DNA from: Erythrobacter litoralis
GTDB taxonomy: Bacteria; Pseudomonadota; Alphaproteobacteria; Sphingomonadales; Sphingomonadaceae
Reading direction: 5' to 3'
NCBI RefSeq assembly: GCF_029760855.1
Contig: NZ_SOSI01000004.1
Coordinates: forward strand, 62,001 to 126,000
DNA length: 64,000 nt
Under the pieces are notes generated by a model. It was given only the letters and a program-made list of their open reading frames with translations, was not told where the DNA came from and ran no database searches. This document shows, piece by piece, positions 11,429-34,583 of the stretch; position 1 is the first letter of the stretch, and every line of letters begins with the position of its first letter. The position numbers were made by a program, and so were the translations under genes.

Positions 11429-11553
11429 ACCGCGTGTTCCGAACTTCCGGCAAGAGGGCTTGGCACAGCCGTGCCTTCCTCGGTCAAACCACCGATACGT
11501 ATCGCGCTGCTGATAGGTCGACGGATACTTGACAGGCTTCCCCCCGCTCATCA

Positions 11554-11567
11554 TGGTAGCGCTAACA
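11554..11567. promoter_or_regulatory. Candidate XylR operator between xylR and GH3/GH10 operon
   Basis: TGGTAGCGCTAACA matches the palindrome at 13 of 14 positions, centred on TAGCGCTA. It lies in the divergent intergenic space, 126 bp from the xylR start and 45 bp before the GH3 start, and could control both directions. Confidence 0.75.
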
Positions 11568-11611
11568 GATACAAAGCCTCAGTCAAGCGACCGGGGTCAG
11601 GGAGAGCTTCG

Positions 11612-14034: not shown

Positions 14035-15195
14035 ATGGTTGATATCTCACGCCGCGCCGCGCTTGCAGGCCTGTGCAGCCTTCCGCTGGCCGGTTGCGCC
14101 ACATTACCGTCGTCACGCAGCGCCGCAAACGTGCCCGCCGGCCCCAGCCTCGATGCCATCGCCCGGCGCAGCGACCGGCGGTTCGGCAGCGCGGTCGCCT
14201 GGAATGCGGACGGCACCGGAATGTCGATCACCAATCCGCGCTATGCCGATCTGGTGAAAGCGGAATGCGGGGTGGTGGTGCCGGAAAACGAACTGAAATG
14301 GCAGAGCCTGCGCCCTTCGCCCGATACTTACAATTTCAAACCGATGGATGCGATCGCCGAATGGGCGCGGGCGAACGGGCAGGACTTGCGCGCCCATGTC
14401 CTGCTATGGCACCGGCCCGAATGGTTTCCCGAATGGCTCAACACCTATGATTTCGGCGCGACGCCGGTGCGCGAGGCGGAGCGGTTGCTCGGCGAGCATA
14501 TTCAAACCGTAACGCAGCGCTATGGCAGCCAGATCAAGAGCTGGGACGTCGTCAACGAAGCGATCGATCACGATGCGCGCAAACCCATCGAAACCAGCCT
14601 GAGCCGTGTAATGGGCAGCCCGGAAGCCGTGATCGACTATGCGTTTCATCAAGCGCGCGAACAGCTTCCCGACGCGCAGCTCGTCTATAACGATTACATG
14701 AGCTGGGAGCCGCAGCACGAAGGCCATGTCGCCGATGTGCTGCGCCTGCTCGAAGGGATGAAGGCACGCGGCGTTCCGTGCGATGCGCTCGGCATCCAGT
14801 CGCATATCGAGATGTTCGAACTCGATCAGGCGACCGGCGTCGGGGTGTACGACGAGGCGGGATGGCGCCGCTTCCTCGACGAAGTAACCGGCATGGGCTA
14901 CCGGCTTGTCATCACCGAATTCGACGTGAAGGACACCGCCCTGCCCGCCGATCTCGCCGCGCGAGATGCGGCGGTCGCGGACTATACGCGGCGCTATTTC
15001 GACGTAATGATGGATTACGACGGCATGCTCGACGACGTACTGGTCTGGGGCATGGTCGATGCCTTCAACTGGCTCCAGTATTTCGAGCCGGCACGACGGG
15101 CGGACGGCCTCGAAGTGCGCGGTGCGCCTTACGACAACCAGTATCGCCCCAAACCGATGCGCGGTGCATTGGCCGACGCCTTGGCAACCTCTTAG
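14035..15195 (+). CDS. Glycoside hydrolase family 10 endo-1,4-beta-xylanase, lipoprotein
   Basis: A 386-residue GH10 xylanase that cuts the xylan backbone inside the chain. The N-terminus, DISRRAALAG followed by LAGC, looks like a Tat-type lipoprotein signal. GH10 marks are VVPENELKWQSLRP, HVLLWHRPEWFPEWL, the acid/base Glu175 in WDVVNEAI, the substrate-binding NDYMSWE, and the nucleophile Glu295 in LVITEFDVKD. The length is normal for a single-domain GH10, with no binding module. It is the second gene after the GH3 xylosidase in a two-gene operon under the palindrome at 11554. It converges with the halogenase-like gene with one base between the stop codons. Confidence 0.93.
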   Translation: MVDISRRAALAGLCSLPLAGCATLPSSRSAANVPAGPSLDAIARRSDRRFGSAVAWNADGTGMSITNPRYADLVKAECGVVVPENELKWQSLRPSPDTYNFKPMDAIAEWARANGQDLRAHVLLWHRPEWFPEWLNTYDFGATPVREAERLLGEHIQTVTQRYGSQIKSWDVVNEAIDHDARKPIETSLSRVMGSPEAVIDYAFHQAREQLPDAQLVYNDYMSWEPQHEGHVADVLRLLEGMKARGVPCDALGIQSHIEMFELDQATGVGVYDEAGWRRFLDEVTGMGYRLVITEFDVKDTALPADLAARDAAVADYTRRYFDVMMDYDGMLDDVLVWGMVDAFNWLQYFEPARRADGLEVRGAPYDNQYRPKPMRGALADALATS

Positions 15196-15196
15196 G

Positions 15197-16648
15197 TCAG
15201 GCTTGTCGCGCGCCGAGCCGCTGCATCATCCATTGGCCGTAAGGCGGAAGCTGCGCGAGGGCAGCCTTTGCGGACCGTTCGAACTCCGCTTGCAGTGCCG
15301 CCACATGGCGAGCATCGCCGCTGCGTTCCTGCGGCGGTATGCCGCGCGTAAAGCCAAGCGCCTCGTAAAGGCCGATCCGTTCCTCGGCCTCGAACGCATA
15401 TTCTTCGCGAAAGGGCAGTCGGCCCCGACGCGTATACTGGTCGATGGCAGAAAGGACGGCATCCGGCGGATCGTCTCCCGCGAATACCTGCCGCGCGAAC
15501 GGTGCGGCGCGATGGAGGGCAAGAGATTCGTGCACGCCGTCCAACATCAGGCGGGCGCGGCGGTTGAACTCGGATCGTTCGCGCGGATCGATAATGCGGC
15601 CGGGAAGAAGTTCCAGCAGCAGATCGAGCATCCGGTGCGCGAGGTCGATCGGCAGGAAGGCGAGCGGTTCCATGCACGCCGCGGCGTCCCCGATTGCAAT
15701 CACATTGCCGATCCAGGGCTCGCGCACGGCATCCTCGTGCAGCGCGACCTTCGCCGCCGGTTGCGTTTGCAAGGCCCGCGCCGCCGCTTCCTCGTGAATA
15801 TCGGCTCGGGCCCCCAAGATGGTTTGCAGACCGCTCCGGCTCGCCAATTCGAGCAGCCAACCTTCCGGCAACAGGGACAGGCGGTCCTCCAGAGCGAGCA
15901 TCCCCTGCCCCAACGGTGCGTAGTAGAGAGTTCGTTCGGTGCCTTCGCGCCATTCGGCCTCCGGATGCGCACCAATGACGCTGCGTGCGATACCGCTGCA
16001 ATCAACATACAGGTCTGCCGTCATGCGCTCGCCTTGCGTCGACGATATCGCCGCAACTCCGCCCGCGCCCATCTCGACCCTCGCGATGCCTCCGGAAACG
16101 AGCCGCACTCCGATCCTCTGCGCCTCGGCTGATAGAAGTGCGCGATAGGCGGCGGGATCCCAGCGCATCGCGTAATCGAGCTTATCGACGGGACCGGTCC
16201 CCTCGCCCTGGTGCACAGCGAAGCGGCCCGCATTCGCAAGAACTTCCGCCAGCGAGCCCGGCGCTCGCGCGGCTCCCGCACTGCGCGAACCCCCGCCCCA
16301 TTGCGCCGCGAACCGCGCCTGCTGCGGCACGCCGCTCGCAGAGCCGTAGGCCATAGCGCCGTGCTGCCCCGCCCCGCCCCAGCCGATGTAGCGCAGTATC
16401 AGCCGGTGGCTCCCACCAGCCTGCCCGATAAGGACGTCCTCCGTAATGCCGAGCCGGTGATGCAGGCGATTGGAGAAAGGCAACGCGCTGGCCGCATGGT
16501 CCGCGAAATCGCGCGGGTCGCCCTGCGTGACCAGCACAACCACTTCGCACCCGGGCACCGCGCGCTTCAGTCCGATCGCGGTCAGGATGGCAACCTGGCC
16601 CCCGCCGACGATCGCGATGCGGCGCAGCGGTTCGCCGGCGGCGCTCAC
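15197..16648 (-). CDS. Degenerate tryptophan-halogenase-family flavoprotein
   Basis: A 483-residue relative of flavin-dependent tryptophan halogenases that has lost the family's key residues. The FAD motif is IVGGGQVAILTA, where the neighbours have GGGTAGWMTA. The catalytic Lys position reads Arg82 (SHRLIL against ATYKLG). The WxWxIP motif is missing. The EPLEST segment reads EPLAFLP. A FAD-site element, IGNVIAIGDAAACMEPL, remains. I use the GTG at 16648, which overlaps the upstream halogenase stop as GTGA, instead of a frame open to 16897. It is the last gene of the MFS-halogenase-halogenase-like operon. It may be a non-catalytic partner or a different flavoprotein. Function unknown. Confidence 0.75.
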   Translation of the reverse strand: MSAAGEPLRRIAIVGGGQVAILTAIGLKRAVPGCEVVVLVTQGDPRDFADHAASALPFSNRLHHRLGITEDVLIGQAGGSHRLILRYIGWGGAGQHGAMAYGSASGVPQQARFAAQWGGGSRSAGAARAPGSLAEVLANAGRFAVHQGEGTGPVDKLDYAMRWDPAAYRALLSAEAQRIGVRLVSGGIARVEMGAGGVAAISSTQGERMTADLYVDCSGIARSVIGAHPEAEWREGTERTLYYAPLGQGMLALEDRLSLLPEGWLLELASRSGLQTILGARADIHEEAAARALQTQPAAKVALHEDAVREPWIGNVIAIGDAAACMEPLAFLPIDLAHRMLDLLLELLPGRIIDPRERSEFNRRARLMLDGVHESLALHRAAPFARQVFAGDDPPDAVLSAIDQYTRRGRLPFREEYAFEAEERIGLYEALGFTRGIPPQERSGDARHVAALQAEFERSAKAALAQLPPYGQWMMQRLGARQA

Positions 16649-18171
16649 GCGGGCTGCGCCGCCAACCGTGCGGCCTCGCGTTTCAGGTAGGCGACATGGA
16701 CCGGCATGCGGGCGACTTCCCCATCGATCTCCTGCCGCAACCGCTCCAGCGCGGCTGCGACCCGGTGCGGGTCCGCGAAGGCGGTGCGAGTATCGTGCTT
16801 GTCCGGCAGCAGGCCCTGCCCGACATAGACCGCAATCCAGCTCGCATCGTAGAACAGGCCGTCGGCGTATTTCTCTATCCGCCCGGCCTTGCGCCAAAGG
16901 TCCATCTTGGCGGCGAGGCTATCGGGCACCGCCATCGTTCGCACGTGGTTCCAGAACTCGGAATCGTCGCGCGTCGTCACGTGATAATGCAGGATGAGGA
17001 AATCCCGCACCCGGTCGTATTCGATGTCGACCAGCCGGTTGAACTCGTCGCGGTCCCGCCCATCGATCGCACCGCCTTCGGGGAACAGTTCGATCAGATA
17101 GGTGATCGCCATCTGCGCCAGATAGATCGAGGTGGATTCGAGCGGTTCGAGGAATCCGCTGGCCAGCCCGACGCCTATGACATTGTGGCTCCAGCTGTGC
17201 TTGCGCCGCCCGGGTCGGAAGCGGAGCACGCGGGGATCGGCGAGCGGCTCGCCCTCCGCCGCAACGCGGATCGCTTCGCAGGCCTCATCCTCGCTCAGAT
17301 GTGCGCTCGAGAACACGTAACCGTTGCCCATGCGGTGCTGGAGCGGGATCTGCCAGCGCCAGCCGGCCGGCATCGCGGTCGCGGTTGTATAGGGCCGGAT
17401 GTCCTCCGTTTCGTGCGTGCACGGCATGGCGGCGGCCCGGTCGCAGGGAAGCCAGTGGGTCCAGTCCTCCCATTCTTCGCCCAGCGTTTCGCCCAGCAAC
17501 AACGAGCGGAAACCCGAGCAGTCGACGAACAGGTCGCCTTCGATCCGACGCCCGTCTTCCATGACCAGCGCGCGGACATCTCCGCTGTCCCCGTCGCGCT
17601 CGACCGATGTGACGCGGCCTTCGTGCCGGGTCACACCGTTGGCGAGGCCGAACTCGCGCATGAACGGGCCGAACAGCGTGGCGTCGAACTGATAGGCGTA
17701 GCCATAGGTCGAGGCCAGGCTCGTTCCCTCGGCGGGCGGGGCGAAGCGGTTGGCTTTGGCGGCGGCGACGGCGAAGGAATAGTCGCCCAGGGGCGCGGCC
17801 ATGCCTTGCCGTTCAAGCTCGAGCCACCAGTGGTGGAAACCCACCCCGGCCACCTCCTCGCCGAAGCTGCCGAAGGGATGGATGTAGCTCGTCCCGATGC
17901 TGCCGAAATCGCGGAAATCGATGCCGAGCTTGTAGGTTGCATGGGTGGCGCGCATGAACGTCGCCTCGTCGATCCCCAGTCGTTCGACGAAGCCGCGGAT
18001 GTGCGGCAGCGTTGCCTCGCCCACGCCGACGATGCCGATATCCTCGCTCTCGACAAGCGTCACTTCGGCAAGGTCGGGCAGAAGCTTGGCAAGCCCGGCC
18101 GCCGTCATCCACCCCGCCGTCCCGCCACCGAGGACGACGACGCGGGTTTTCGGTTTCCCTTCGCGCTGCAT
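16645..18171 (-). CDS. Tryptophan-halogenase-family FAD protein
   Basis: A 508-residue member of the flavin-dependent tryptophan halogenase family. Visible features are the FAD Rossmann motif VVLGGGTAGWMTAA near residue 11, the catalytic Lys81 in ATYKLGIDF, the halogenase motif GWRWQIPLQHR, and EPLESTSIYLAQ near the active site. The closest well-studied relatives halogenate tryptophan or other aromatics using reduced FAD and halide. For the members found in sugar-uptake loci, however, no substrate is established. The gene is 53 bp after the MFS porter on the same strand and overlaps the next, degenerate paralogue. No flavin reductase partner was seen in the window. Confidence 0.82.
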   Translation of the reverse strand: MQREGKPKTRVVVLGGGTAGWMTAAGLAKLLPDLAEVTLVESEDIGIVGVGEATLPHIRGFVERLGIDEATFMRATHATYKLGIDFRDFGSIGTSYIHPFGSFGEEVAGVGFHHWWLELERQGMAAPLGDYSFAVAAAKANRFAPPAEGTSLASTYGYAYQFDATLFGPFMREFGLANGVTRHEGRVTSVERDGDSGDVRALVMEDGRRIEGDLFVDCSGFRSLLLGETLGEEWEDWTHWLPCDRAAAMPCTHETEDIRPYTTATAMPAGWRWQIPLQHRMGNGYVFSSAHLSEDEACEAIRVAAEGEPLADPRVLRFRPGRRKHSWSHNVIGVGLASGFLEPLESTSIYLAQMAITYLIELFPEGGAIDGRDRDEFNRLVDIEYDRVRDFLILHYHVTTRDDSEFWNHVRTMAVPDSLAAKMDLWRKAGRIEKYADGLFYDASWIAVYVGQGLLPDKHDTRTAFADPHRVAAALERLRQEIDGEVARMPVHVAYLKREAARLAAQPA

Positions 18172-18224
18172 CGGCCGATCCTAGCGCATCGACGAAGGAG
18201 CGCACACCCGCGGCGCTTGCAAGT

Positions 18225-19679
18225 TCATTTGATGCGCGTCGTCGGCGCGATCGCGTCGCCGACGCTAGCCGGTGCGTCCCAGCCTTCCATTTCCTCCAGC
18301 TCCTTGCCTTTGGTCTCGTTGATGAACCGTTTGACCAGAAAGAAGCTGATCGCCGCACTGATCGTATAGATCGCATAGGTGACCGCAAGGCCGAGACCGT
18401 CGGCCATCAGCGGGAAGGTCTGCACGACCAGAAAGTTCGCCCCCCACTGTGCGAGGCCCGCCACCGCCAGTGCCGACCCGCGGATCTGATTGGGGAACAT
18501 CTCGCCCAGCATCACCCACATCACCGGGCCCCAGCTCATGTTGAAGAAGATGACATAGAGATTGGCGGCAACCAGCGCGATGTTGCCGGCCATCCCGCTG
18601 AGCACGAGGTTGCCGGACGCATCGGTACCCGCGCCGGAAAAGGCGAACGTCATCGCCCCGAGCGATACGGCCATCCCTACCGATCCGATCATAAGGAGCG
18701 GCTTGCGCCCAATCTTGTCGATGAACAGGATCGCCACGAACACCGCCGCGATCGAGACCACGCCCGAGACGATATTGATCAGCAGTGAGTCGCTTTCGGT
18801 GAAGCCGGCGAGCTGCCACAGCGTTTCGCCGTAATAGAAAATCACGTTGATGCCGACGAATTGCTGGAACGTCGCCAGCAGCAGCCCGGCCCATACGATC
18901 GGGCGGAAGATCGTTCCGCTTGCGGTCACATCAGACAGGCGGGGGCGATGCTCGTCGCTGAAGCTCGCTTCGATCTCGCCGATCTTGCGATTGGCGGTTT
19001 CCGTGCCGAACAGGCGGGTTAGAACCTTCCGCGCATCCTCGCTATGGCCCCGGCTGACGAGATAGCGCGGGCTCTCCGGAATGAAGAACAGCGCAACCAG
19101 GAAGATCGCGGCGGGAACGGCTTGCGCGAGATACATCCAGCGCCATGCCGGCGTCCCGCCGATTTCGGCCAGCGAGTCTCCGGCGGCTGCCGCGAGAAAG
19201 TAATTAACGAGGAAGGCGGCGGTGAGACCGGTGATGATCATTACCTGCTGCACTGTCGTCAACCGGCCGCGGATATTCGCGGGCGCGACTTCCGAAATAT
19301 ATAGGGGCGAGAGCACGCTTGCCGCACCCACCGCCATGCCGCCGGCGAACCGCGCGATGACGAAGAATGTATGATCGGCCGTCGTCCCTTGGATGAGCGC
19401 GCCGACGACGAAGAGGACCGCCGAGACGATCATCACGCGCTTGCGTCCGATTACATCCGCCAGCCGGCCGGCGAAGAAGGCACCGAACGCACAGCCGATG
19501 AGCAGCGATCCGACGGTAAACCCGAGCTGTGCCGGACTGAGATCGAACGCCGCGGTCAGGCCGCCTTGCGTTCCGTTCACCGCGCCGCTGTCGTAACCGA
19601 ACAGCAAGCCGCCGATCGTCGCGACGGCGACGATTGCCGATATCAGCGCCATGTTGACGCCGCTGCGTGTCGTATCCAT
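18225..19679 (-). CDS. xylE: MFS sugar porter (XylE-like D-xylose:H+ symporter)
   Basis: A 484-residue major facilitator with 12 expected membrane segments, of the sugar-porter family. It should bring D-xylose across the inner membrane. Family marks are GYDSGAVNGTQGG in helix 1, GRLADVIGRKRVM in the first cytoplasmic loop, RFAGGMAVGAASVLSPLYISEVAP, the IPESPRYLVSRG motif, QQFVGINVIFYYGETLW, DKIGRKPLL and KGKELEEME at the C-terminus. The start at 19679 faces xylA across a 123-bp gap holding a palindromic operator. A close relative of Caulobacter's xylose porter is the natural call. Glucose or arabinose transport cannot be excluded. Confidence 0.85.
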   Translation of the reverse strand: MDTTRSGVNMALISAIVAVATIGGLLFGYDSGAVNGTQGGLTAAFDLSPAQLGFTVGSLLIGCAFGAFFAGRLADVIGRKRVMIVSAVLFVVGALIQGTTADHTFFVIARFAGGMAVGAASVLSPLYISEVAPANIRGRLTTVQQVMIITGLTAAFLVNYFLAAAAGDSLAEIGGTPAWRWMYLAQAVPAAIFLVALFFIPESPRYLVSRGHSEDARKVLTRLFGTETANRKIGEIEASFSDEHRPRLSDVTASGTIFRPIVWAGLLLATFQQFVGINVIFYYGETLWQLAGFTESDSLLINIVSGVVSIAAVFVAILFIDKIGRKPLLMIGSVGMAVSLGAMTFAFSGAGTDASGNLVLSGMAGNIALVAANLYVIFFNMSWGPVMWVMLGEMFPNQIRGSALAVAGLAQWGANFLVVQTFPLMADGLGLAVTYAIYTISAAISFFLVKRFINETKGKELEEMEGWDAPASVGDAIAPTTRIK

Positions 19680-19718
19680 GTTCCCTCTCCCTCACCCATT
19701 TCCATAACGGGCCGCTTA

Positions 19719-19732
19719 TGTTAGCGCTAACT
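19719..19732. promoter_or_regulatory. Candidate XylR operator between MFS porter and xylA
   Basis: TGTTAGCGCTAACT is the best copy of the palindrome, 13 of 14 with both halves nearly perfect. It sits in the divergent promoter region, 39 bp from the porter start and 70 bp from the xylA start, so one site could control both units. Confidence 0.78.
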
Positions 19733-19802
19733 ATGACGTAAACATTGGCGAACGCAAGCGCGGTTTTAATCATTTCAGCCGCGCAAACCGAAAAGGAATT
19801 CC

Positions 19803-21365
19803 ATGCTTACAGGCACCAATCTCATCGCCGGCGAACAACGCCAATCCGGACAGACCTTTCAGGCCGTCGAAGCTGCTTCGGGCACCAAGCTCGATCCCGC
19901 CTTTCATGAGGCTAGCGAACAGGACGTTGCAGATGCCTGTGCGGCTGCCGCCGAAGCGCAGAAAGTTTTCGGTGCACTCTCGCCCGCGAAGCGCGCCGCC
20001 TTCATCCGCCTCGTCGCCGAGAAGATCGACGCGCTGGGCGATATGCTGACGCAGCGCGCGATGCAGGAAAGCGGCCTTCCCGAAGCGCGCCTTAACGGAG
20101 AGCGCGGGCGCACAGTCGGCCAGCTCCGCCTCTTTGCGGACGAAGTGGAACAGGGCGAATGGCAGCGCCTGCGGATCGATCATGCCGATGGCGGCAAGAC
20201 CCCGTCCAAGCCCGATCTACGCTTGAGGATGATACCGCTGGGCCCGGTCGCCGTGTTCGGGGCGAGCAATTTCCCGCTCGCCTTCTCCGTCGCGGGCGGC
20301 GACACCGCCTCGGCCTTCGCTGCAGGGTGCTGCGTGGTGGTGAAGGGCCACCCGGCGCATCCCGGTACCTCCGAACTGGTTGCGGGCGCGATCAGGGAGG
20401 CGGTCTCTGAAAGCGGTCTGCCTGCCGGGGTCTTCTCGCTCGTCAACAGCACCAGCAACGCGATCGGCGAGGCGCTCGTGACCGACCCGCGCATTGCCGC
20501 TGTCGGCTTTACGGGATCGCGCGCGGGCGGCCTCGCCCTTATGCGCCATGCGGCAGAGCGACCCGTGCCGATCCCGGTCTATGCCGAGATGAGCAGTATC
20601 AATCCTGTCGTCCTCATGCCGAACAAGCTTGCCGCCGACGCGGAAGCCCTTGGACAAGCCTATGTCGGCTCGCTTTCGCTTGGTGCAGGTCAGTTTTGCA
20701 CGAATCCCGGTATCGTCCTCGGTGTGGAGAGCGACGCGCTCGATACCTTCGTCCGTACCTCCGGCAAGGCACTTGAAAGCGTCGCTGCACAGACCATGCT
20801 GACGTCCGCGATTCGTGGGAGCTACGATGAAGGCATCGGCAAGCTTGGAAAGCTGAAAGGCGTCGAGCTGGTCGGAACCGGAGCGGAAGGGTCCGGCAAT
20901 TGCGGCAGGGCTCAGGTTTTCACCGTATCGGGCGACGATTTCCTCGGCGACGACACGTTCTCGCACGAAGTCTTCGGTCCGAGTTCGGTCGTCGTGCGGT
21001 GCCGCGATCTTGATCAGGTGCGGGAAATCCTCACGAAGCTCAAAGGCCAACTCACCACCACCCTTCACATGAACGAAGCGGATCACGATGCCGCGCGCGA
21101 ACTTCTTCCGGTTATGGAGCAACTTGCAGGCCGCATCATCGCCAATGCCTGGCCGACCGGTGTCGATGTGACCCATGCGATGGTCCATGGCGGGCCATTC
21201 CCGGCGACTTCGGACGGACGCAGCACCTCGGTCGGCACTTTGGCGATCGATCGCTTCCTGCGTCCGGTTTCCTATCAGGACATGCCGAGCGATCTCCTGC
21301 CGGAAGCCCTGCGCGAAGACGGCGGTTCCGCGCCGCGCCGCGTCGATGGACAGCGTGCCGGCTGA
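19803..21365 (+). CDS. xylA: 2-oxoglutarate semialdehyde dehydrogenase (XylA-type ALDH)
   Basis: A 520-residue aldehyde dehydrogenase that should oxidise 2-oxoglutarate semialdehyde to 2-oxoglutarate, the last Weimberg step. The general base Glu262 is in YAEMSSINPVVLMP, the form typical of ketoglutaric-semialdehyde dehydrogenases. The catalytic Cys299 is in GAGQFCTNPG. The NAD(P)-binding region shows VAVFGASNFPLAFSVAGGDTASA and GFTGSRAGG. The C-terminal part, AWPTGVDVTHAMVHGGPFPATSD, is also typical of this subgroup. The ATG follows AAAAGGAATTCC. It is a single-gene unit closed by the strong terminator at 21387-21428. The symbol follows Caulobacter usage, and is not the E. coli xylose isomerase. 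Confidence 0.9.
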   Translation: MLTGTNLIAGEQRQSGQTFQAVEAASGTKLDPAFHEASEQDVADACAAAAEAQKVFGALSPAKRAAFIRLVAEKIDALGDMLTQRAMQESGLPEARLNGERGRTVGQLRLFADEVEQGEWQRLRIDHADGGKTPSKPDLRLRMIPLGPVAVFGASNFPLAFSVAGGDTASAFAAGCCVVVKGHPAHPGTSELVAGAIREAVSESGLPAGVFSLVNSTSNAIGEALVTDPRIAAVGFTGSRAGGLALMRHAAERPVPIPVYAEMSSINPVVLMPNKLAADAEALGQAYVGSLSLGAGQFCTNPGIVLGVESDALDTFVRTSGKALESVAAQTMLTSAIRGSYDEGIGKLGKLKGVELVGTGAEGSGNCGRAQVFTVSGDDFLGDDTFSHEVFGPSSVVVRCRDLDQVREILTKLKGQLTTTLHMNEADHDAARELLPVMEQLAGRIIANAWPTGVDVTHAMVHGGPFPATSDGRSTSVGTLAIDRFLRPVSYQDMPSDLLPEALREDGGSAPRRVDGQRAG

Positions 21366-21386
21366 TCGCGCCACTCTGCGACAATG

Positions 21387-21428
21387 AAAAAAGGCCGCCG
21401 CATCCGAAAATGCGGCGGCCTTTTTTTT
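21387..21428. terminator. Bidirectional rho-independent terminator
   Basis: A perfect 10-bp stem, GGCCGCCGCA (21393-21402) with TGCGGCGGCC (21411-21420), has an A-run on the left and eight T on the right. The two flanking genes converge here, so the same hairpin can end xylA on the plus strand and the TonB receptor on the minus strand. Confidence 0.93.
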
Positions 21429-21439
21429 GCTGAGTTCAG

Positions 21440-24400
21440 TTAGAAATTGCCGCGAACGATGAACGAGAACCTGCGGTCGTTCACAAAGAAAGAACGCGGC
21501 GCGAGCCGGTCCGGATCTCCGGTAAAGGCCTGCGAAGTCTTGGTGACCTCGTTCAACAGGTTCACGCCCTGTACCCCGACCTTGATCGCGTCGCTCACGT
21601 CGAAGAAGATCGACGCATCCAGCTGTCCAGTCGGCTCGTTGAAGATCGAATAGAACGGGAAGATTGCATCCGAAGCCGTAAGCAGGAAGCGAGAGCGCCA
21701 ATTATATGCTGCACGCGCCGAAATCGGACCTTTCTCGTAGAACACCGTGGCGTTCACATTATGCTTCGAAAGCTGTTCGAGCGGCAAATTACCCGGCGCA
21801 ACAGTGGATGGGCTTTCCACCGTATTGTTCGCGATATTTCCACCGTTCAGGAAGCTGCTGGGCAGGCCTTCGCTGTCGATATAGGTATAGTTCGCCGCCA
21901 CGCCGAGACCGTCGAACGGCGCGGGGAGGAAATCGTACGTCTGCTGGTAAGCCGCTTCGAAACCCTTGATCTTTCCGGTGCCATCGAAGTTTTCCGGCCG
22001 GCGGGTTGGTACAACGACTTGCGTTCCGTTGAATTCATACGCGATGTCCGTCACGTTCTGGAAGAAGAACCCTTCGACTTCCTTGTAGAACGCATTGAAC
22101 GTCAGCGAGCCCACGGTATCGAAATACCATTCAGCCGAAGCATCGAACTGCCACGCTGTTGCGGGCCTGATCGAGGGATTTCCGGCTTGTGCAAACAGGC
22201 CACCGCTATTCGCATCGAGCTGCGTATTGAGGAAGTTTCGGATATAGGCATTATCCGGCCGGGTAAGCACTTTCGAAGCCGCAAACCGCAGCACGAGATC
22301 GTCGCCAACGCCGAAGCGCAGGTTCAGGCTCGGGAGCCAGTAATCGTATGTGTCGCGCGAAGGCACATAGATTGGATCCAGATCGGCGATCGCCTGTAGC
22401 GCCGCATAACCGTCCGGCCCGAGGTTGCAGATGCCGCCCGGTGAGACTTCCGTTCCGTCCGGCCGGGTAATCGGGGTGAGGCACCGTGTGTCGAAGTCTT
22501 GTGTAAGGTTCAGGCTCTCTCGCGTACCGAGATCGAACGAACCCGGCGAACTTACGTCGGTTCGAACGTAGCGAACGCCGGCATTACCGCCGAACCGGAC
22601 GTCGCCGAAAATCGGATCGTACGGTTTGCCGAACGAAAGCATCGCATAGCCGGCATAATCGTTCTGCTTTATGTTCTGGATATCGGTCGGGAGGAACGGC
22701 GTTCCCGCGATCACGCCTCCACGCTGTTCAAGGGGCACGAACCCGGTCAGCGTATCATTGTCGGGATCGTTCTGACGGTCCCATTCGCGGATGATGCCTT
22801 GGGTGAAATCCTGGAAACCCTGATAATCGTCGATCAGGTCGCCCGAATAATAGTAACCTCCGACCGGTCCGTTGGTATCGCCGCGGAAGAAGTCGGGGAA
22901 TTCGTAGAATTCCTGCTGGTCCTGCCCGAATTCGTCGAACGAGACCGCCGTCCCGGCCCATACTTCGCTGAGTACGCCCCAGTTATAGGTCGTATAGCGG
23001 ACCTGCTGGTCCTGCCGTTGGTACCGGCCGCCAACCTTCGCGTAGCGCAGGAAGGAATCGTCGTCGAATTCGTAATTGAGGTCGGCCCGGAAAGCGAACT
23101 GATCGCCTTCACTGTCCTCGATGTGATCCATGGCCGCACGCCAGTATTGCGAGCGCGGATCCATGAAATATTCCGCATCGGTCTGGTTCGCCAGCTCCTC
23201 GTTGACGCCGCCCCAAGTGTAGGTCGTGATGTCGGGGCGATGCGGGATGACGGTCGGCAGATCGCCCGTCAGGTCGAGCTCCTGATCGGCGAAAGTCGAA
23301 CCGAAGATGCTGACATCGAGGTTTTGCTTCTTCGAACTCGCATATTGCGCATCGAGTTCGAGTGACAGGCGGTCGGTGAACTTTTGTGAGAAGTGTACGC
23401 CGTAATCGTAATTGGTGGTCTCGTCGTCCACCTGACGCCGCGCGAGATGCTGCTGCATGCCGCCTGCAGTTACGAAACCGCCATTGGCGTCGTTTCCGCG
23501 AAAGGCATCGCTGGGACGCGTGATGTATCCTGACTGGAACAGCCCGTCGTCGTCGTAAAGATAGTCCTGGAATTCCCCGATCGGACATTCAGCCCGCGGC
23601 GTCGGATCGCCGCTGACGAATCCTCCACGGCCATCCGGCGTAAGAATGTTCGGACCATTTGCGTTTTGAAGGCAGCCCTGCGGAAACGTATTGTACTCGG
23701 ACTGGTCGGGTAGGGTTTCGAACGTGTATTCACCCCAGCGATTGGTCGAATGCGAACGGATGAACTGCGCCGTCAGCAAGGAACGTTCGTCGTTCGACTC
23801 CCACTGGAACGTTGCCGCGACACCGTCGCGCTTGCGGTCGAATTCCTGCGTGCGGAATTGTCCGCCAATGGGTGCGTAGCGGACATCGGCGTAGTCGGCG
23901 AAGCCATCCGCTCCGGGAGTTCCCGCCGTTCCGCATGCCGAGTTCGGCGGCGGGAGAGTGTTGTTGTCCACGCCGGCAAGCGGCAACGGATTGCGGCAGA
24001 CCCGCGCGCCGTCGGCAAACGCCTGTTCGACCAGTTGCCCGTCGCGCGTCTGGAAGTTGGTGATCTGCAAGCCGTCCGCACGGCTCTTGATCTGGGAGTA
24101 GGATGCACTGACCAGGAAGCCAAACGTGCCCGCATCGGTTTCCCATGTATTGCTGATCAGGCCGGAAACCGTCGGCGTCCACTTCTCGCGGAAGTCGCCG
24201 TAGTTCGCTTCGGCGCTGAAGGCGATCTTGAGACCGTAATCGTCGAACGGCTTGCGGGTGTTCAGATTGACCGTTCCGGCAAGGCCGCCTTCGATCATGT
24301 CGGCGGTCGAGTTCTTGCTTACGATTACCGATCCCAGCAGTTCGGACGGGACATCGGCGAAGTTCAGTGCCTGCCCGCCGACCCCTGCGACGAACGCGGT

Positions 24401-24862
24401 CCGCCCGTTGAATTCGGACCGCACGAAATTGAGGCCGCGCACAACGACGCCGGAACCTTCGACCGAGAAGTGATCCGGATCGCTCGACCCGGCAAAGCGG
24501 TTGATGGCGAGACCCGGCACCCGCTGCAGCGCTTCGGTAACGGAGCGGTCGGGAAGCGCGCCGATATCGGCGGCGGTAATGGCATCGACCACGGTATCGG
24601 CTTCGCGCTTGATGTTTTGCGCATTTGCCAGCGATTGGCGGATGCCGCTGACGATGATGACGTCGCCGTCGGTCTGATCCGCGTCGGGCTCACCGGTTTC
24701 CGCATCGACCGGATCTTCGACCGGAGCGGTCTGCGCATAGGCGGCATTCGCGGCCAGCAGCCCGGACAGCGCCATGGTCGACGCACCTGCACGCAGCAGG
24801 TTGCGGAATAAAAATTCGTTGCCTGCGCCCAAGCGGCCGCGCGGCGTGATCGCCTTAGTCAC
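21440..24862 (-). CDS. TonB-dependent receptor for xylan/glucan oligosaccharides (Caulobacter type)
   Basis: A 1140-residue outer-membrane active transporter. The signal region ends ANAAYAQ near residue 44. A TonB-box-like DVIIVSGIRQSLAN is at 68-81, the plug domain (DIGALPDRSVTEALQRVPG) follows, and a long beta-barrel ends in phenylalanine, as outer-membrane proteins do. It should carry oligosaccharides too large for porins into the periplasm. I set the start at GTG 24862 with GGGAGAGGG upstream. The frame open to 25375 would cross the operator and the divergent gene. The operator at 24877-24890 lies just upstream. It is divergent from the halogenase-halogenase-cupin operon, a pairing often seen in these bacteria. 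The cargo is inferred from the surrounding hydrolases. Confidence 0.9.
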   Translation of the reverse strand: MTKAITPRGRLGAGNEFLFRNLLRAGASTMALSGLLAANAAYAQTAPVEDPVDAETGEPDADQTDGDVIIVSGIRQSLANAQNIKREADTVVDAITAADIGALPDRSVTEALQRVPGLAINRFAGSSDPDHFSVEGSGVVVRGLNFVRSEFNGRTAFVAGVGGQALNFADVPSELLGSVIVSKNSTADMIEGGLAGTVNLNTRKPFDDYGLKIAFSAEANYGDFREKWTPTVSGLISNTWETDAGTFGFLVSASYSQIKSRADGLQITNFQTRDGQLVEQAFADGARVCRNPLPLAGVDNNTLPPPNSACGTAGTPGADGFADYADVRYAPIGGQFRTQEFDRKRDGVAATFQWESNDERSLLTAQFIRSHSTNRWGEYTFETLPDQSEYNTFPQGCLQNANGPNILTPDGRGGFVSGDPTPRAECPIGEFQDYLYDDDGLFQSGYITRPSDAFRGNDANGGFVTAGGMQQHLARRQVDDETTNYDYGVHFSQKFTDRLSLELDAQYASSKKQNLDVSIFGSTFADQELDLTGDLPTVIPHRPDITTYTWGGVNEELANQTDAEYFMDPRSQYWRAAMDHIEDSEGDQFAFRADLNYEFDDDSFLRYAKVGGRYQRQDQQVRYTTYNWGVLSEVWAGTAVSFDEFGQDQQEFYEFPDFFRGDTNGPVGGYYYSGDLIDDYQGFQDFTQGIIREWDRQNDPDNDTLTGFVPLEQRGGVIAGTPFLPTDIQNIKQNDYAGYAMLSFGKPYDPIFGDVRFGGNAGVRYVRTDVSSPGSFDLGTRESLNLTQDFDTRCLTPITRPDGTEVSPGGICNLGPDGYAALQAIADLDPIYVPSRDTYDYWLPSLNLRFGVGDDLVLRFAASKVLTRPDNAYIRNFLNTQLDANSGGLFAQAGNPSIRPATAWQFDASAEWYFDTVGSLTFNAFYKEVEGFFFQNVTDIAYEFNGTQVVVPTRRPENFDGTGKIKGFEAAYQQTYDFLPAPFDGLGVAANYTYIDSEGLPSSFLNGGNIANNTVESPSTVAPGNLPLEQLSKHNVNATVFYEKGPISARAAYNWRSRFLLTASDAIFPFYSIFNEPTGQLDASIFFDVSDAIKVGVQGVNLLNEVTKTSQAFTGDPDRLAPRSFFVNDRRFSFIVRGNF

Positions 24863-24876
24863 TGTATCCCTCTCCC

Positions 24877-24890
24877 TGTTAGCGCTACCA
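24877..24890. promoter_or_regulatory. Candidate XylR operator at the TonB receptor promoter
   Basis: TGTTAGCGCTACCA matches 13 of 14 positions and lies 14 bp upstream of the receptor's GTG, next to its Shine-Dalgarno. It is in the divergent region shared with the halogenase operon starting at 25025. From memory, the described Caulobacter XylR operator has the same TAGCGCTA core. Confidence 0.77.
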
Positions 24891-25024
24891 AACAATGTTA
24901 GGCGCGCATTACTTTCGGGTGGCGGGGAATATCCAACGGGGGCAGCCTTTGCAATACCCTGCGGTAAAGATAGAGGGAGGTGTTGCAAAAATACGCAAGT
25001 CGCGTGGGAGGCGCACGATTCCAT

Positions 25025-26584
25025 ATGGCCGCAGGTAACGGTAACAGTCGACGGATCGAACGCGTCGTTGTGGTAGGAGGCGGTACGGCCGGCTGGATGG
25101 CGGCAGCGGCCCTTTCGCGGTTCTTCGCCGATGGGACGCGGCGGATAACGGTCGTGGAGTCGGATGCGATCGGCACCGTAGGCGTGGGAGAGGCGACGAT
25201 CCCGCCGATACGCAATTTCAACGCGATGCTGGATATCGACGAGAATACCTTCCTTCGCGAGACCCGCGGCACATTCAAGCTCGGCATCGAATTCGTGAAC
25301 TGGGGCCGCCAAGGCGACCGGTATTTTCATCCCTTCGGCACCTATGGCCGCGACCTTCACGGCATCCAGTTCCACCAGCTATACCTGCGCGAGGCGGCGC
25401 GCGGCGGTTTGGCCGCCGGCTCGATCGAAGACTATTCGATGAGCACGGTCGCTGCGAAACTCGGCCGGTTCGCGCGTCCCTCCGCCGCTGCGAAATCGGC
25501 GGTGTCGGAGATGTTCTTCGCCTTCCATTTCGACGCGGGCCTATACGCCCGCTTCCTGCGCCGCATGGCCGAGCGACAGGGGACCGAGCGCATCGAAGGT
25601 AAGATCGTCGAAGTGCTGCGCGATGACGAAAACGGCGATGTCACGGCCGTTCGCTTGGAAGGCGGCAACACGGTCGCGGGCGATCTGTTCATCGACTGCT
25701 CCGGCTTTCGCGGCCTCTTGATCGAGGACACGCTCGAAACCGGATACGAGGACTGGAGCCATTGGCTGCCGATGGACCGTGCCATCGCCATGCCAACGGC
25801 AAATGTCCGGTCGCCCGATCCGTTCACCCGCGCAACCGCGCACGGCGCAGGCTGGCAATGGCGCATCCCGTTGCAGCACCGCACTGGCAACGGCCACGTC
25901 TTCTCATCCTCTTACATGGGGGAAGACGAAGCACGCGACATCCTGCTGCGCAATGTCGAGGGCGATGCCATCGCCGAACCGCGCACACTCCGGTTCACCA
26001 CCGGTATGCGCAAGCGGCTCTGGTCGCACAACGTCGTCTCGCTGGGCCTTTCGGGCGGCTTCATCGAACCGCTGGAATCGACCAGTATCCACCTCATCCA
26101 GAACGGTATCGCGCGCCTGTTCGCGCTGTTCCCCGATTGGCCGATCAACCCGCTGGAGCGAGACGAATACAATCGCGGCATGCGTGAATTGTACGAGGAT
26201 GTACGGGATTTCGTGATCCTGCATTACAAGGCGACCCAGCGTGACGACACACCCTTCTGGCGCTATGTCCGCGATATGGACGTGCCAGACAGTCTCGCCA
26301 GACGCATGGAATTGTGGCGCCGGCGCGGGCGGGTGTTCCGAGAGAATGCCGAACTGTTCTCGCAGCCGAGCTGGGTTGCGGTGATGCTCGGCCAGAACGT
26401 CTGGCCCGAAGGGCACGATCCGATCGCCGACACGCTCGACGAGCGCAAGGTCGCCGCCGCCATGACGCAAATGCGCGAGGGCTACCGGGCAACGGCAGAG
26501 CGCCTGCCGACGCAAGAGCAATTCCTGCGGCAGGCCGGCGCTTGGCACGAAGACACTCCGCCGCAAATGACTGCGCAGTGGTGA
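25025..26584 (+). CDS. Tryptophan-halogenase-family FAD protein
   Basis: A 519-residue halogenase-family flavoprotein with all main features: FAD motif VVVGGGTAGWMAAA (near 15-28), GVGEATIPPI, the catalytic Lys85 in GTFKLGIEF, GWQWRIPLQHR, and EPLESTSIHLIQ. The ATG at 25025 with GGGAGG upstream gives a length like its paralogues. A GTG at 24980 in the same frame is possible but has the Shine-Dalgarno touching it. It is the first gene of an operon in which the next start overlaps its stop (GTGA). Its place next to a TonB receptor under an XylR-type operator ties it to carbohydrate use. The true substrate is unknown; halogenation is known for the family, not for this subgroup. Confidence 0.83.
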   Translation: MAAGNGNSRRIERVVVVGGGTAGWMAAAALSRFFADGTRRITVVESDAIGTVGVGEATIPPIRNFNAMLDIDENTFLRETRGTFKLGIEFVNWGRQGDRYFHPFGTYGRDLHGIQFHQLYLREAARGGLAAGSIEDYSMSTVAAKLGRFARPSAAAKSAVSEMFFAFHFDAGLYARFLRRMAERQGTERIEGKIVEVLRDDENGDVTAVRLEGGNTVAGDLFIDCSGFRGLLIEDTLETGYEDWSHWLPMDRAIAMPTANVRSPDPFTRATAHGAGWQWRIPLQHRTGNGHVFSSSYMGEDEARDILLRNVEGDAIAEPRTLRFTTGMRKRLWSHNVVSLGLSGGFIEPLESTSIHLIQNGIARLFALFPDWPINPLERDEYNRGMRELYEDVRDFVILHYKATQRDDTPFWRYVRDMDVPDSLARRMELWRRRGRVFRENAELFSQPSWVAVMLGQNVWPEGHDPIADTLDERKVAAAMTQMREGYRATAERLPTQEQFLRQAGAWHEDTPPQMTAQW

Positions 26585-28095
26585 GCGCACCACCGATCCG
26601 CAGGATCGTCATCGCCGGCGGGGGGACCGCCGGATGGATGACCGCTGCCGCGCTCGGCAAGGTGCTGGGCGGCATCCCCGGCCTGTCGATCACCCTGATC
26701 GAAAGCGAGGCGATCGGCACGGTAGGCGTGGGCGAAGCGACGATCCCGCGCATCCACGCGTTCAACGCGATGCTCGGCCTCGACGAGAACGCCTTCGTCC
26801 GCGAAACCTGCGCGACGTATAAACTCGGCATCGAATTCGTCGACTGGCTGCGGCCCGGCCACCGCTACGTCCACCCGTTCGGACGCTACGGGCTTGATAT
26901 GATGGGCATCGAATTCCATCATTTCTGGCTCAAGGCGCAGGAGGCCGGCGAATCGGAACCGCTCGACAGCTTTTCGATCGCGGCGATGGCCGGGAAGGCG
27001 GGCAAGTTCGCGCGCCCGCGTCCCGATCAGCCGAATTCGCCCCTGTCCAAACTTGCCTATGCTTTCCAGTTCGATGCCAGCCGCTATGCCCACTTCCTGC
27101 GTGGCTATGCCGAGAAGCTCGGCGTGCGGCGGATCGAGGGCCGGATCGTCGATGTCGTGCAGGATGGGGAAAGTGGGTTCGTCGATGCGGTCCGGCTGGA
27201 GAACGGCGAAACCGTCGCGGGCGAATTGTTCGTCGACTGCTCCGGCTTTCGCTCGCTGCTCCTCGGGCAAACGCTTGGTGTGCCGTTCACGGACTGGACC
27301 AAATGGCTTCCCTGCGACCGCGCGATTGCGGTCCCCTGCGAGCTTGGCGGGGATCACGAACCGCTCACCCGCTCAACTGCGCGGCCCGCCGGCTGGCAAT
27401 GGCGCATTCCGCTCCAGCACCGGATCGGGAACGGGCACGTCTATTCCTCGGCGCATATGGATGACGGCGAGGCCGAAGACCTGTTGCTAGCCAATCTCGA
27501 TGCAGCACCGATCGCCGAACCAATTCGCCTGCGCTTCACCGCAGGCTATCGCACACGGGCGTGGGAAAAGAACGTCGTGGCGCTGGGCCTTGCCGCCGGC
27601 TTCCTCGAACCGCTGGAATCGACTGCGATACATCTGGTCCAGGTCGGTATCGCGCGGCTCCTGACACTGTTTCCGACCACCGCGTTCACACCGAACGAGA
27701 TTGCGCGTTACAATCTCGAACACGAAAACGAATATCGCGACATCCGCGATTTTCTCGTGCTGCATTACCTCGCGACCGAGCGCGACGATACCGAGTTCTG
27801 GCGCTATTGCCGGAATCTCGAACCACCGCCGGCCGTCGCGGAAAAGATCGCCATGTTCGAAAGTTCGGGCCGGGTATTCCGCGAGAACAACGAGCTTTTC
27901 ACGGAAACGAGCTGGCTGTCCGTAATGGCGGGACAGGGCATTACGGCGGGCGGCTATCATCCGATGACCGACACGCTCGGCCTCGACGAGACCCGCAAGC
28001 GGCTCGCTCATATACGGCAGGTGGTTAGCGCCGCAGTCACGCAGATGCCGACTCAGGAGGAGTTTCTCACGGTCAATGGCGGCGCGATCCGATGA
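26581..28095 (+). CDS. Tryptophan-halogenase-family FAD protein
   Basis: A 504-residue paralogue of the preceding gene, with IVIAGGGTAGWMTAAA at the N-terminus, Lys81 in ATYKLGIEF, GWQWRIPLQHR, and EPLESTAIHLVQ. The start is GTG 26581, overlapping the preceding TGA by four bases. A start at 26314 would lie deep inside that gene. The stop overlaps the ATG of the Cupin_8 gene (ATGA), so the three proteins are likely made together in fixed ratio. The two adjacent paralogues may form a pair or act on different substrates. All conserved catalytic positions I can check are intact. Confidence 0.83.
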   Translation: MSAPPIRRIVIAGGGTAGWMTAAALGKVLGGIPGLSITLIESEAIGTVGVGEATIPRIHAFNAMLGLDENAFVRETCATYKLGIEFVDWLRPGHRYVHPFGRYGLDMMGIEFHHFWLKAQEAGESEPLDSFSIAAMAGKAGKFARPRPDQPNSPLSKLAYAFQFDASRYAHFLRGYAEKLGVRRIEGRIVDVVQDGESGFVDAVRLENGETVAGELFVDCSGFRSLLLGQTLGVPFTDWTKWLPCDRAIAVPCELGGDHEPLTRSTARPAGWQWRIPLQHRIGNGHVYSSAHMDDGEAEDLLLANLDAAPIAEPIRLRFTAGYRTRAWEKNVVALGLAAGFLEPLESTAIHLVQVGIARLLTLFPTTAFTPNEIARYNLEHENEYRDIRDFLVLHYLATERDDTEFWRYCRNLEPPPAVAEKIAMFESSGRVFRENNELFTETSWLSVMAGQGITAGGYHPMTDTLGLDETRKRLAHIRQVVSAAVTQMPTQEEFLTVNGGAIR

Positions 28096-29111
28096 GCCCC
28101 TTGCCTATTCCGGCTCCAGTCCGCGAAATGGAAGGTCCGGTTTCTGCAGAAATCCTCGCAGATATCCGGGAGCGTCGCCAACCGGTCGTGATGCGCGGCC
28201 TCGTCGCCGATTGGCCGGCGGTGGCAGCGGCCCGGCAGGGGGATGAGGCTTTATGCGCGGCGATCGCGCAAGGTGGCTCGACGCGCCCGGTGCAGGCCAT
28301 CGCGGCCAAGCCCGAGGAAGGCGGCCGCTTCTTCTACACCCCCGGTCTGACGGATCTGAACTTCATTCGCGGCAAGGGCCGCTTGGAGACGTTTCTCGGC
28401 GATCTCCTGCGGTTGGCAGGTCGGGACGCGGTACCGGCCATGGCCGTTCAGTCCGAAGATATCGGCGAAGTCATCCCCGCTTTTGCGCACGCCAACACGC
28501 TTGGCCTCCTGCCCGGTGTACGGCCACGCATCTGGATCGGCAATCGCATCCGCGTCGCCCCGCATTTCGACGTGAAGGAAAACATCGCCTGCTGCATCGG
28601 CGGGCGCCGCATCTTTACCATTTTCCCGCCCGACCAGACCGCCAACCTCTATCCTGGTCCGTTCGAGCTGACGCCGGCCGGCACGCCGATCAGCCTGGTC
28701 GATCTGTCCGCCCCCGATCTTGATGCATTTCCACGCTTCGCCGATGCGCAAGCAGCGGCGCAGGAAGCGACGCTGGCGCCGGGCGATGCGATCTACATCC
28801 CCTATTGCTGGTGGCATGGCGTCGCATCGCTGGACGACATGAACGTGTTGGTGAACTACTGGTGGAACGACGGCGAGCCCAAAGGCATAGGCGGCGGGTA
28901 CGAAGCGATGCTTCACGCCCTCTACGCCTATCGCCACCTACCGCCCGAGCAGCGCGACGTGTGGCGCGACCTGCTCGACTATTACGTGTTCGAGCGCTCC
29001 GGCGACCCCGCGGCCCATCTGCCTGACGATGCGAAAGGCGTACTGGGGCCGCCCTCGCCCGGCCTGTTCGCCCGGATGCGCGGCACAATCCGGGACGCAC
29101 TCGCCCGCTGA
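28092..29111 (+). CDS. Cupin_8 / JmjC-like domain protein
   Basis: A 339-residue second Cupin_8 protein of this locus, clearly paralogous to the one at 3015: RQPVVMRGLVADWPAVAAARQG, the His-x-Asp motif in APHFDVKEN, IFPPDQTANLYPGPFE, and the distal WWHGV. A JmjC-type Fe(II)/2-oxoglutarate oxygenase activity is possible from the fold but not shown. It overlaps the halogenase-like gene upstream by ATGA, the strongest sign of shared function with it. The next gene, paoC, ends on the opposite strand directly at its stop. Confidence 0.8.
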   Translation: MSPLPIPAPVREMEGPVSAEILADIRERRQPVVMRGLVADWPAVAAARQGDEALCAAIAQGGSTRPVQAIAAKPEEGGRFFYTPGLTDLNFIRGKGRLETFLGDLLRLAGRDAVPAMAVQSEDIGEVIPAFAHANTLGLLPGVRPRIWIGNRIRVAPHFDVKENIACCIGGRRIFTIFPPDQTANLYPGPFELTPAGTPISLVDLSAPDLDAFPRFADAQAAAQEATLAPGDAIYIPYCWWHGVASLDDMNVLVNYWWNDGEPKGIGGGYEAMLHALYAYRHLPPEQRDVWRDLLDYYVFERSGDPAAHLPDDAKGVLGPPSPGLFARMRGTIRDALAR

Positions 29112-31307: not shown

Positions 31308-31321
31308 GGGTGCGGCTCCGA

Positions 31322-32272: not shown

Positions 32273-32276
32273 CGGA

Positions 32277-34501: not shown

Positions 34502-34528
34502 TCTTTTAAGCAACTGAATGCTTAAACG

Positions 34529-34560
34529 GCTGGCGGGGTCGCGGGATCGACCCCGCCAGC
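34529..34560 (+). terminator. Hairpin between pilin and chaperone genes (partial terminator)
   Basis: A perfect 13-bp GC-rich stem (GCTGGCGGGGTCG at 34529-34541 with CGACCCCGCCAGC at 34548-34560) encloses a six-base loop and is followed by TTTATT. It lies 27 bp after the pilin stop and just before the chaperone Shine-Dalgarno. Since no promoter is evident after it, it may allow partial read-through or block 3' decay. Confidence 0.7.
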
Positions 34561-34583
34561 TTTATTACTTCGAGGGGGAAATC

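Follow-up and report, generated by a model that had tools for sequence, protein, structure and literature searches.

Flavin-dependent halogenases (FDHs; PF04820) of the BrvH type have solved structures and activity in vitro, and their native substrates are not known. BrvH (6FRL, Brevundimonas BAL3) is reported to halogenate free indole in vitro but not tryptophan, and its open active site resembles that of MibH (PMC5945002). Xcc4156 (6Y1W, Xanthomonas campestris) is reported to act on indole derivatives in vitro and not to accept free tryptophan; the same report describes the natural substrates of the Xcc enzymes and BrvH as unknown and proposes a peptide (PMC7336383). Other FDH-like flavoproteins are described as modifying Trp within a peptide or protein. 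MibH chlorinates Trp solely when it is part of its peptide, deschloro NAI-107 (PMC5945002), QhpG dihydroxylates peptidyl Trp (PMC7876137), and LodB helps to mature its target protein. The substrates of QhpG and LodB are quinone-cofactor proteins, so that all three have known substrates, unlike the FDHs treated here. In the carbohydrate utilization loci containing TonB-dependent receptors (TBDRs; CUT loci) of Xanthomonas and Caulobacter, a TBDR stands with glycosidases and plant-sugar porters, and a xylan locus is among those described (PMC1790865). We analyzed a 64,000 nt stretch of Erythrobacter litoralis (NZ_SOSI01000004.1, positions 62,001-126,000; genome 2.97 Mb), hereafter the window, in which a locus of this type carries four FDH genes, fdhA to fdhD. 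Three are intact, and fdhA is a conserved pseudo-halogenase. FDHs of this family lie beside TBDRs of the TIGR01782 family more often than expected by chance.

The window meets the description of a CUT locus in having a TBDR, glycoside hydrolases (GHs), a porter and shared operators. The main text of the CUT paper (Blanvillain, PMC1790865) has no words starting with halogenase or SapC, and the tailoring module of the window is the addition. Compared with BrvH and Xcc4156, the locus in the window combines three enzymes of that kind with a pseudo-enzyme. We did not find the link between FDHs and sugar TBDRs in the available text of open-licence papers. The word TonB does not occur in the main text of the BrvH paper (PMC5945002), the Xcc4156 paper (PMC7336383) or an FDH genomic survey (PMC8269204), halogen is absent from the main text of the Shewanella sugar encyclopedia (PMC2996990), and in what we saw of PMC11337851 halogenase and TBDR transcripts are treated separately.

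The products of fdhB, fdhC and fdhD all carry the FAD motif GxGxxG, the catalytic Lys, WxWxIP and the Glu in EPLES that define PF04820. K85, W277, W279 and E348 are invariant across 11 diverse FDHs, and in the alignment that holds all three window enzymes (A1) G18-G20, K85, W277, W279, I281 and E348 are all invariant. Judged by sequence, the three are catalytically complete and of the BrvH/Xcc4156 type. The solved structures closest to fdhC are 9LUQ (Pseudoalteromonas L11), 6Y1W and 6FRL (535-482 bits), with which it aligns nearly end to end, while named Trp halogenases score at most 297 bits; the phmmer alignment stops at residue 431-437 with PrnA and RebH and extends to about 500 with PyrH and SttH. 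Among NCBIfam models the FDHs match QhpG, LodB, CmlS and geranylgeranyl reductases below cut-off, far below in the case of QhpG and LodB. By eye, neither the FDHs nor the cupins begin with a signal peptide.

The link to receptors was surveyed in three samples. At the order level, PF04820 matches were found in 42 of 60 genomes. Of the best 150 matches, the 148 with at least 80 bits were kept and fell into 95 FDH clusters in 33 genomes (including the window's own two), which were fetched with their flanks; 40 stretches at round coordinates in genomes of the same set served as controls. A profile of the window TBDR matched 71/95 clusters and 1/40 controls, rising to 77/95 and 4/40 when a second TBDR profile was added. 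LacI genes (46/95), Cupin_8 (26), SapC (27) and DUF6445 (10) were likewise found near FDHs, each against 0/40 in controls. The phylum-level sample was 22 of 249 genomes, chosen for SapC, few contigs and family spread and so not random. Dropping 23 of its 77 FDH rows, which scored below 60 bits and are probable other flavoproteins, left 54 to set against 103 TIGR01782 receptors (from 104 rows, one gene having been split over two). FDHs were within 5 kb of a TIGR01782 receptor in 48/54 cases (47 of the 48 on the receptor's strand), where receptor density and rounded genome sizes would predict 2.5. The same distance held for 12/18 Cupin_8 (seven weak rows dropped), 18/40 SapC and 4/8 DUF6445 genes (one broken row dropped). 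TIGR01782 was present in 10/11 genomes with such FDHs, and an FDH was present in 1/8 genomes without TIGR01782. The window's genome has 27 PF00593 matches and three receptors above the TIGR01782 cut-off; its five FDH genes all stand near two of these three, at distances of at most 7 kb.

In the third sample a TBDR was present in 66/80 named loci; these come from Alpha-, Beta- and Gammaproteobacteria and are the top-scoring 80 among at least 583, hence biased to kin of the query. Over the 175 FDH loci of the first and third samples, FDH runs adjoin a TBDR in 137/188 cases and a glycosidase in 47/188, the latter a lower bound as five glycosidase families were profiled. Frequent gene orders are TBDR-FDH, TBDR-SapC-Cupin_8-FDH and TBDR-SapC-FDH-FDH. 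FDHs and these receptors are co-located more than chance allows. The original prediction, which had proposed from the letters alone that the halogenases and cupins belong to a carbohydrate locus, named random co-occurrence in a broad survey as grounds to abandon the idea, and in none of the three samples was co-occurrence random. Specialists may know this linkage, as TrpH, SapC and Pass1 are used by comparative-genomics annotators as names for genes neighboring TBDRs.

The linkage does not depend on one polysaccharide. Glycosidases of starch type (GH13/GH97) occur in 48 of the 175 loci, GH10 in 12 and the chitin-type GH20 in five (GH20 by Pfam check); 32 have GH3 without any of these, and 78 have none of them. 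The enzymes follow the receptor and not one sugar, and the modules belong to TIGR01782-type sugar receptors generally. The glycans of GH13/GH97 and GH20 loci are not known to carry phenolics. Since the FDH families occur in starch-type and chitin-type loci, a phenolic or a sugar- or xylan-specific substrate becomes less likely. On a receptor tree FDH linkage clusters, with 12 changes against 36 when shuffled, as do the receptors of loci with a pseudo-FDH (7 against 31); this shows only joint inheritance.

The product of fdhA has Arg in place of the catalytic Lys, lacks WxWxIP and reads EPLAFL instead of EPLEST, so by its motifs it is not a catalytically active PF04820 member. Its predicted fold (mean pLDDT 89) matches BrvH at a TM score of 0.85, the FDH fold being retained in the model, and MibH ranks 50 in the same fold search. 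Counting open frames that cover most of the profile, and excluding incomplete ones at contig edges, we found a group of 37 such divergent FDHs (pseudo-FDHs) in 36/175 FDH loci (12/95 and 24/80). WxWxIP and EPLEST are kept in 0/37, and the catalytic Lys in 0/12 of the set that includes fdhA and in 5/25 of the others. An intact FDH lies directly upstream (<400 bases, same strand) of 36/37; at the sole exception (L232) the upstream FDH is cut by the contig edge. Loci with GH10 have a pseudo-FDH alongside intact FDHs in 12/12 cases. In a tree of the 37 together with a random draw of 70 from 262 intact FDHs, the pseudo-FDHs form one group (support 0.85), the largest subgroup having 32 members (support 0.65), although long branches may contribute to the grouping. 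They are also found in the Gammaproteobacteria Gilvimarinus, Cellvibrio, Aestuariibacter and Glaciecola. Across the four closest loci, the ratio of nonsynonymous to synonymous substitution rates (dN/dS) is 0.16-0.58 for FdhA and 0.08-0.21 for FdhB, rough values because dS is near saturation.

Retention of the group in 36/175 loci, the shared motif loss, the grouping in the tree, the dN/dS values and the retained predicted fold make fdhA a conserved pseudo-halogenase. The original prediction had counted four halogenase-family genes, one of them degenerate; the count and the loss of motifs hold, but degenerate is the wrong word for a member of a conserved pseudo-enzyme group. We considered and rejected a dying gene, given the conserved group, the dN/dS values and the open frames. 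A conserved, catalytically dead halogenase is an unexpected pseudo-enzyme in its own right. Receptors in pseudo-FDH loci are also longer by about 150 residues (medians: 1089 aa here, 939 aa in other linked receptors and 949 aa in unlinked ones).

Oxygenases of other families accompany the FDHs. Both window cupins have the HxD..H facial triad: in the one encoded after fdhD, HFD is at residue 158 and the distal His at 242, and in the one encoded after GH3 these are at 154 and 238/239. The consensus over 44 aligned Cupin_8 stretches is H.D .. H. The best PDB relatives of the former are FIH (over residues 149-263) and JMJD5 (over ~145-259), which share the HxD..H; unlike them, the window protein is bacterial and receptor-linked. 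At the position of the FIH Lys that binds 2-oxoglutarate (2OG), the window cupin appears to have an Arg. DUF6445 proteins have invariant H110, D112, H206 and R224 in seven sequences (HxD..H), and their best fold match is the P4H of P. putida (E 1.6e-4, TM 0.43 by query and 0.54 by target). Motif and fold qualify DUF6445 as a 2OG oxygenase, with a modest fold score. We did not find a DUF6445 match in the window's genome; the family neighbors FDHs in other genomes. A third type, a tetratricopeptide repeat protein fused to 2OG-FeII_Oxy_5, is encoded on a Catenovulum plasmid (L309:8352-9872), between a TBDR gene and an FDH gene, in a locus with GH32 and amylosucrase. Its relatives occur in 7/175 loci, five of them overlapping the FDH frame or within 10 bases of it, and two were checked by Pfam. 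That several unrelated O2-using families (FDH, Cupin_8, DUF6445, 2OG-FeII_Oxy_5) stand by one receptor family is expected of a protein-tailoring role, and is not proof of it. SapC, which often partners the FDHs, has no HxD motif in its consensus, and we did not find a PDB match for it. It also has another context: 22/40 SapC genes of the 22-genome set are more than 10 kb from a TIGR01782 receptor or in genomes without one, and in the window's genome one SapC gene (G000:C6:85309-85968) lies apart from these receptors, with similar cases in other genomes.

The co-location suggests that the enzymes modify something common to these uptake systems, possibly the receptor itself. The original prediction had offered a sugar, a surface protein such as the receptor, or a plant phenolic as the target. 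The receptor gains weight as a target, since the enzymes track it and not one sugar and have some relatives that act on proteins or peptides; the sugar and the phenolic lose ground with the starch- and chitin-type loci. The reading we prefer, at a probability of about 0.38, is that the FDHs and Cupin_8 proteins are cytoplasmic enzymes that tailor an uptake-system protein by halogenation or hydroxylation, most likely the precursor of the receptor, with fdhA as a non-catalytic partner of fdhB. A xylan-uptake unit under LacI/XylR-type control would then carry an accessory module of O2-using enzymes, namely three complete FDHs, two Cupin_8 2OG oxygenases, and a pseudo-halogenase encoded in overlap with an intact FDH. 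Covalent modification would precede export, and the receptor precursor is the candidate to consider first. The FDHs would halogenate or oxidize aromatic side chains, using FADH2 from a general flavin reductase, and the Cupin_8 proteins would hydroxylate side chains. The partner role of fdhA may be that of a heterodimer subunit, a substrate holder or a regulator. If sugar receptors are the partners of BrvH-type halogenases, only a few proteins would need to be screened for their substrate, a task within reach of mass spectrometry in a laboratory Caulobacter; Caulobacter vibrioides has matches to PF04820, TIGR01782, SapC and Cupin_8. Halogenation or hydroxylation of a receptor in the outer membrane would, if true, represent a new kind of bacterial protein modification.

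Several observations count against tailoring of the receptor. An outer-membrane protein is only briefly accessible to a cytoplasmic enzyme before its export. In the 22-genome set 36/103 TIGR01782 receptors have an FDH within 5 kb and 67/103 do not. Conversely, 24/95 and 14/80 FDH loci have no TIGR01782-like TBDR in the fetched stretch, and 18/95 and 10/80 match neither TBDR profile, some of these stretches ending at contig edges. The window's fdhC-fdhD pair is divergent from its receptor, unlike 47/48 in the 22-genome set. Among alignment columns of ten residue types, none cleanly separates 134 FDH-linked from 40 unlinked receptors, and we rejected a single residue as the mark of linkage; the nearest columns are Lys 1044 (0.62 linked, 0.20 unlinked) and Trp 1055 (0.55 and 0.28), in sets that differ in taxa. 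The sub-cut-off matches to CmlS, a halogenase of a small-molecule pathway, have scores like those to QhpG.

This last point leads to the strongest competitor, in which the substrate is a small aromatic molecule of the cytoplasm (a signal, a cofactor or an indole-type metabolite), needed or made each time a TBDR sugar system is active, or in which the enzymes give off hypohalous acid. The in vitro activities reported for BrvH on free indole and Xcc4156 on indole derivatives fit it, as do the CmlS matches. The ten recurrent neighbor families with Pfam names, however, are sugar, transport, SapC, Cupin_8 and DUF6445 families with none biosynthetic, and the presence of an FDH at each of several TBDR loci per genome (e.g., G204, G232) is odd for one shared product; we regard a small-molecule target as doubtful. 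It is also conceivable that other cytoplasmic or inner-membrane proteins of the locus, such as the major facilitator superfamily (MFS) porter, the LacI regulator or the TonB system, are modified in order to tune transport or regulation. The enzymes look cytoplasmic and LacI genes occur in 46/95 FDH clusters, but FDH runs adjoin LacI in only 8/188 cases and porters in at most 12/188 (MFS 5, maltose-type MFS 4, SSF 3), against the 137/188 for TBDRs, making such targets unlikely. Alternatively, the halogenases may have become flavin-based O2 or redox sensors with residual catalysis, fdhA being further along this path. In favor are the conservation of fdhA despite the loss of its catalytic motifs, the apo structure of Xcc4156, in a paper whose title mentions difficulties with cofactor soaking, and the BrvH structure, reported without FAD (PMC5945002). 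Against this, the invariant Lys, Glu and reaction-chamber W-x-W of fdhB, fdhC, fdhD and relatives point to retained catalysis, and a sensor role seems decidedly improbable. Processing of the aromatic decorations (feruloyl, coumaroyl) of plant xylan, or of another plant phenolic, is a poorer candidate again; it suits a xylan locus and the 12/12 GH10 loci with pseudo-FDH and intact FDHs, but not the same FDH family in GH13/GH97 (48/175) and GH20 (5/175) loci. Classical halogenation of free L-tryptophan, already disfavored in the original prediction, has the family name and the conserved catalytic residues behind it and is barely credible for enzymes whose closest solved relatives (535-482 bits, against at most 297 for Trp halogenases) include two reported not to accept free tryptophan.

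Tailoring of the receptor could be one case of a general post-translational system, in which surface proteins that bind glycans are halogenated or hydroxylated in the cytoplasm, ahead of their display, by FDHs and at least three 2OG-oxygenase families; the targets would be TIGR01782 receptors and perhaps marine-phage tail fibers, and the pseudo-halogenase would be a non-catalytic subunit of xylan-type modules. This extension is speculative and we consider it rather unlikely to hold in full. FDH matches were found in 76 phage records, duplicates included, and 14 distinct phages were examined. Genes for tail fibers, fiber assembly or adhesins are found at most 3 kb from the FDH in 5/14 (P-RSM6, P-SSM2, P-TIM40, S-SRM01, S-WAM1); in a 50-kb P-RSM6 stretch, which is not a proper control, no gene is annotated as tail fiber. 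By annotation, 2OG oxygenases lie within about 3 kb of the FDH in 6/14 (HTVC008M, Syn1, P-RSM6, P-SSM2, S-CREM1, S-WAM1), and Pfam matching of ten chosen unannotated proteins adds syn9. We rejected this proximity as a signal; seven genes annotated as 2OG oxygenases in that 50-kb stretch show that it is not above chance. The FDHs of marine T4-like phages form overlapping pairs in some cases (P-RSM6, syn9, P-TIM40).

The genes of the window's module share a putative operator of the XylR/LacI type. The motif TGNTANCGNTANCA has four exact sites in the window (4071, 5696, 11554, 24877; expected 0.00) and seven when one mismatch is allowed (adding 422, 19719 and 25033; expected 0.52). As the sites at 422, 11554, 19719 and 24877 precede their gene groups, all four FDH genes and both cupin genes have an upstream operator. 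The sites at 4071 and 25033 fall inside listed open reading frames (ORFs). The LacI-type regulator encoded in the locus presumably binds these operators; its true start is later than listed because the helix-turn-helix begins at residue 71 of the listed ORF. The exact operator 4071-4084 sits about 32 bases within the longest GH5 ORF (4039-5649), so GH5 also probably starts later. Exact operators number 20 in 0.71 Mb of pseudo-FDH loci, 19 in 2.66 Mb of other FDH loci and one in 0.79 Mb of controls. Among pseudo-FDH loci, 24/36 have no exact operator, and in 11/36 an exact site lies no more than 600 bases from the 5' end of the TBDR gene.

The locus with the four FDH genes is a xylan/xylose locus (Table 1). 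The FDH genes are surrounded by genes for GH3, Cupin_8, GH5, fumarylacetoacetate (FAA) hydrolase, short-chain dehydrogenase/reductase (SDR), SMP-30, IlvD/Edd, LacI, GH10, a XylE-like porter, aldehyde dehydrogenase and the TBDR. The set of FAA hydrolase, SDR, SMP-30, IlvD/Edd and aldehyde dehydrogenase is what we take to be a non-phosphorylative (Weimberg-type) xylose pathway. The TBDR is a TIGR01782 member of 1140 aa, counted from a chosen GTG start at 24862, with an N terminus that is signal-peptide-like by eye. Co-location of the halogenases with a TonB receptor, an MFS porter and XylR-type operators, as originally described, is borne out. The described four-base overlaps of fdhC with fdhD (GTGA, 26581-26584) and of fdhD with the cupin gene (ATGA, 28092-28095) are also present, and we add a third between fdhB and fdhA (GTGA, 16645-16648), because of which fdhA is best read to 16648. 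Both Cupin_8 genes had been placed among the halogenase genes between 15197 and 29111; one lies there, and the other is outside that range. These two are the only Cupin_8 matches in the genome. Flavin reductase (PF01613), said to be missing, is indeed absent from the window, the sole match in the genome being at C2:240958, and we rejected it as a component of the locus.

Table 1. Coordinates of the halogenase module, the surrounding xylan/xylose genes and the operator sites in the window.
Feature	Position	Strand	Basis or remark
fdhA, conserved pseudo-halogenase	15197-16648	-	PF04820 155 bits, in two pieces, on listed ORF 15197-16642
fdhB, intact FDH	16645-18171	-	PF04820 598 bits
fdhC, intact FDH	25025-26584	+	PF04820 643 bits
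fdhD, intact FDH, GTG start	26581-28095	+	PF04820 624 bits
Cupin_8 / JmjC-type 2OG oxygenase	28092-29111	+	Cupin_8 200 bits
Second Cupin_8 gene, after GH3	3015-4019	+	221 bits
TBDR, TIGR01782 (TonB-Xanth-Caul)	21440-24862	-	630 bits, curated cut-off 310
MFS sugar porter, upstream of fdhB-fdhA	18225-19679	-	Closest model XylE, score below XylE cut-off
GH3 glycosidase	476-3010	+	Profile match
LacI-family regulator	10307-11554	-	Family-profile match
GH3, ORF as listed, true start probably later	11471-14023	+	Profile match
GH10 xylanase family	14035-15195	+	Profile match
FAA hydrolase	5726-6850		
SDR	6774-7637		
SMP-30 lactonase	7031-8512		
IlvD/Edd dehydratase	8523-10544		
Aldehyde dehydrogenase	19803-21365		
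Operator TGTTAGCGCTACCA, divergent promoter TBDR / fdhC	24877-24890	+	Exact
Operator, upstream of MFS-fdhB-fdhA	19719-19732	+	One mismatch
Operator, upstream of GH3-Cupin_8	422-435	+	One mismatch
Operator, between LacI gene and GH3-GH10	11554-11567	+	Exact

Directly after the cupin gene, on the opposite strand, are the molybdopterin, FAD and 2Fe-2S subunits of an aldehyde-oxidase-type enzyme (29112-32909), the 2Fe-2S subunit having a twin-arginine-like N terminus by eye. Further on, 34019-37754 is a possible chaperone-usher cluster, with a PapD-type chaperone (33 bits), a weak usher match (29 bits) and, by eye, a pilin-like ORF ahead of them.

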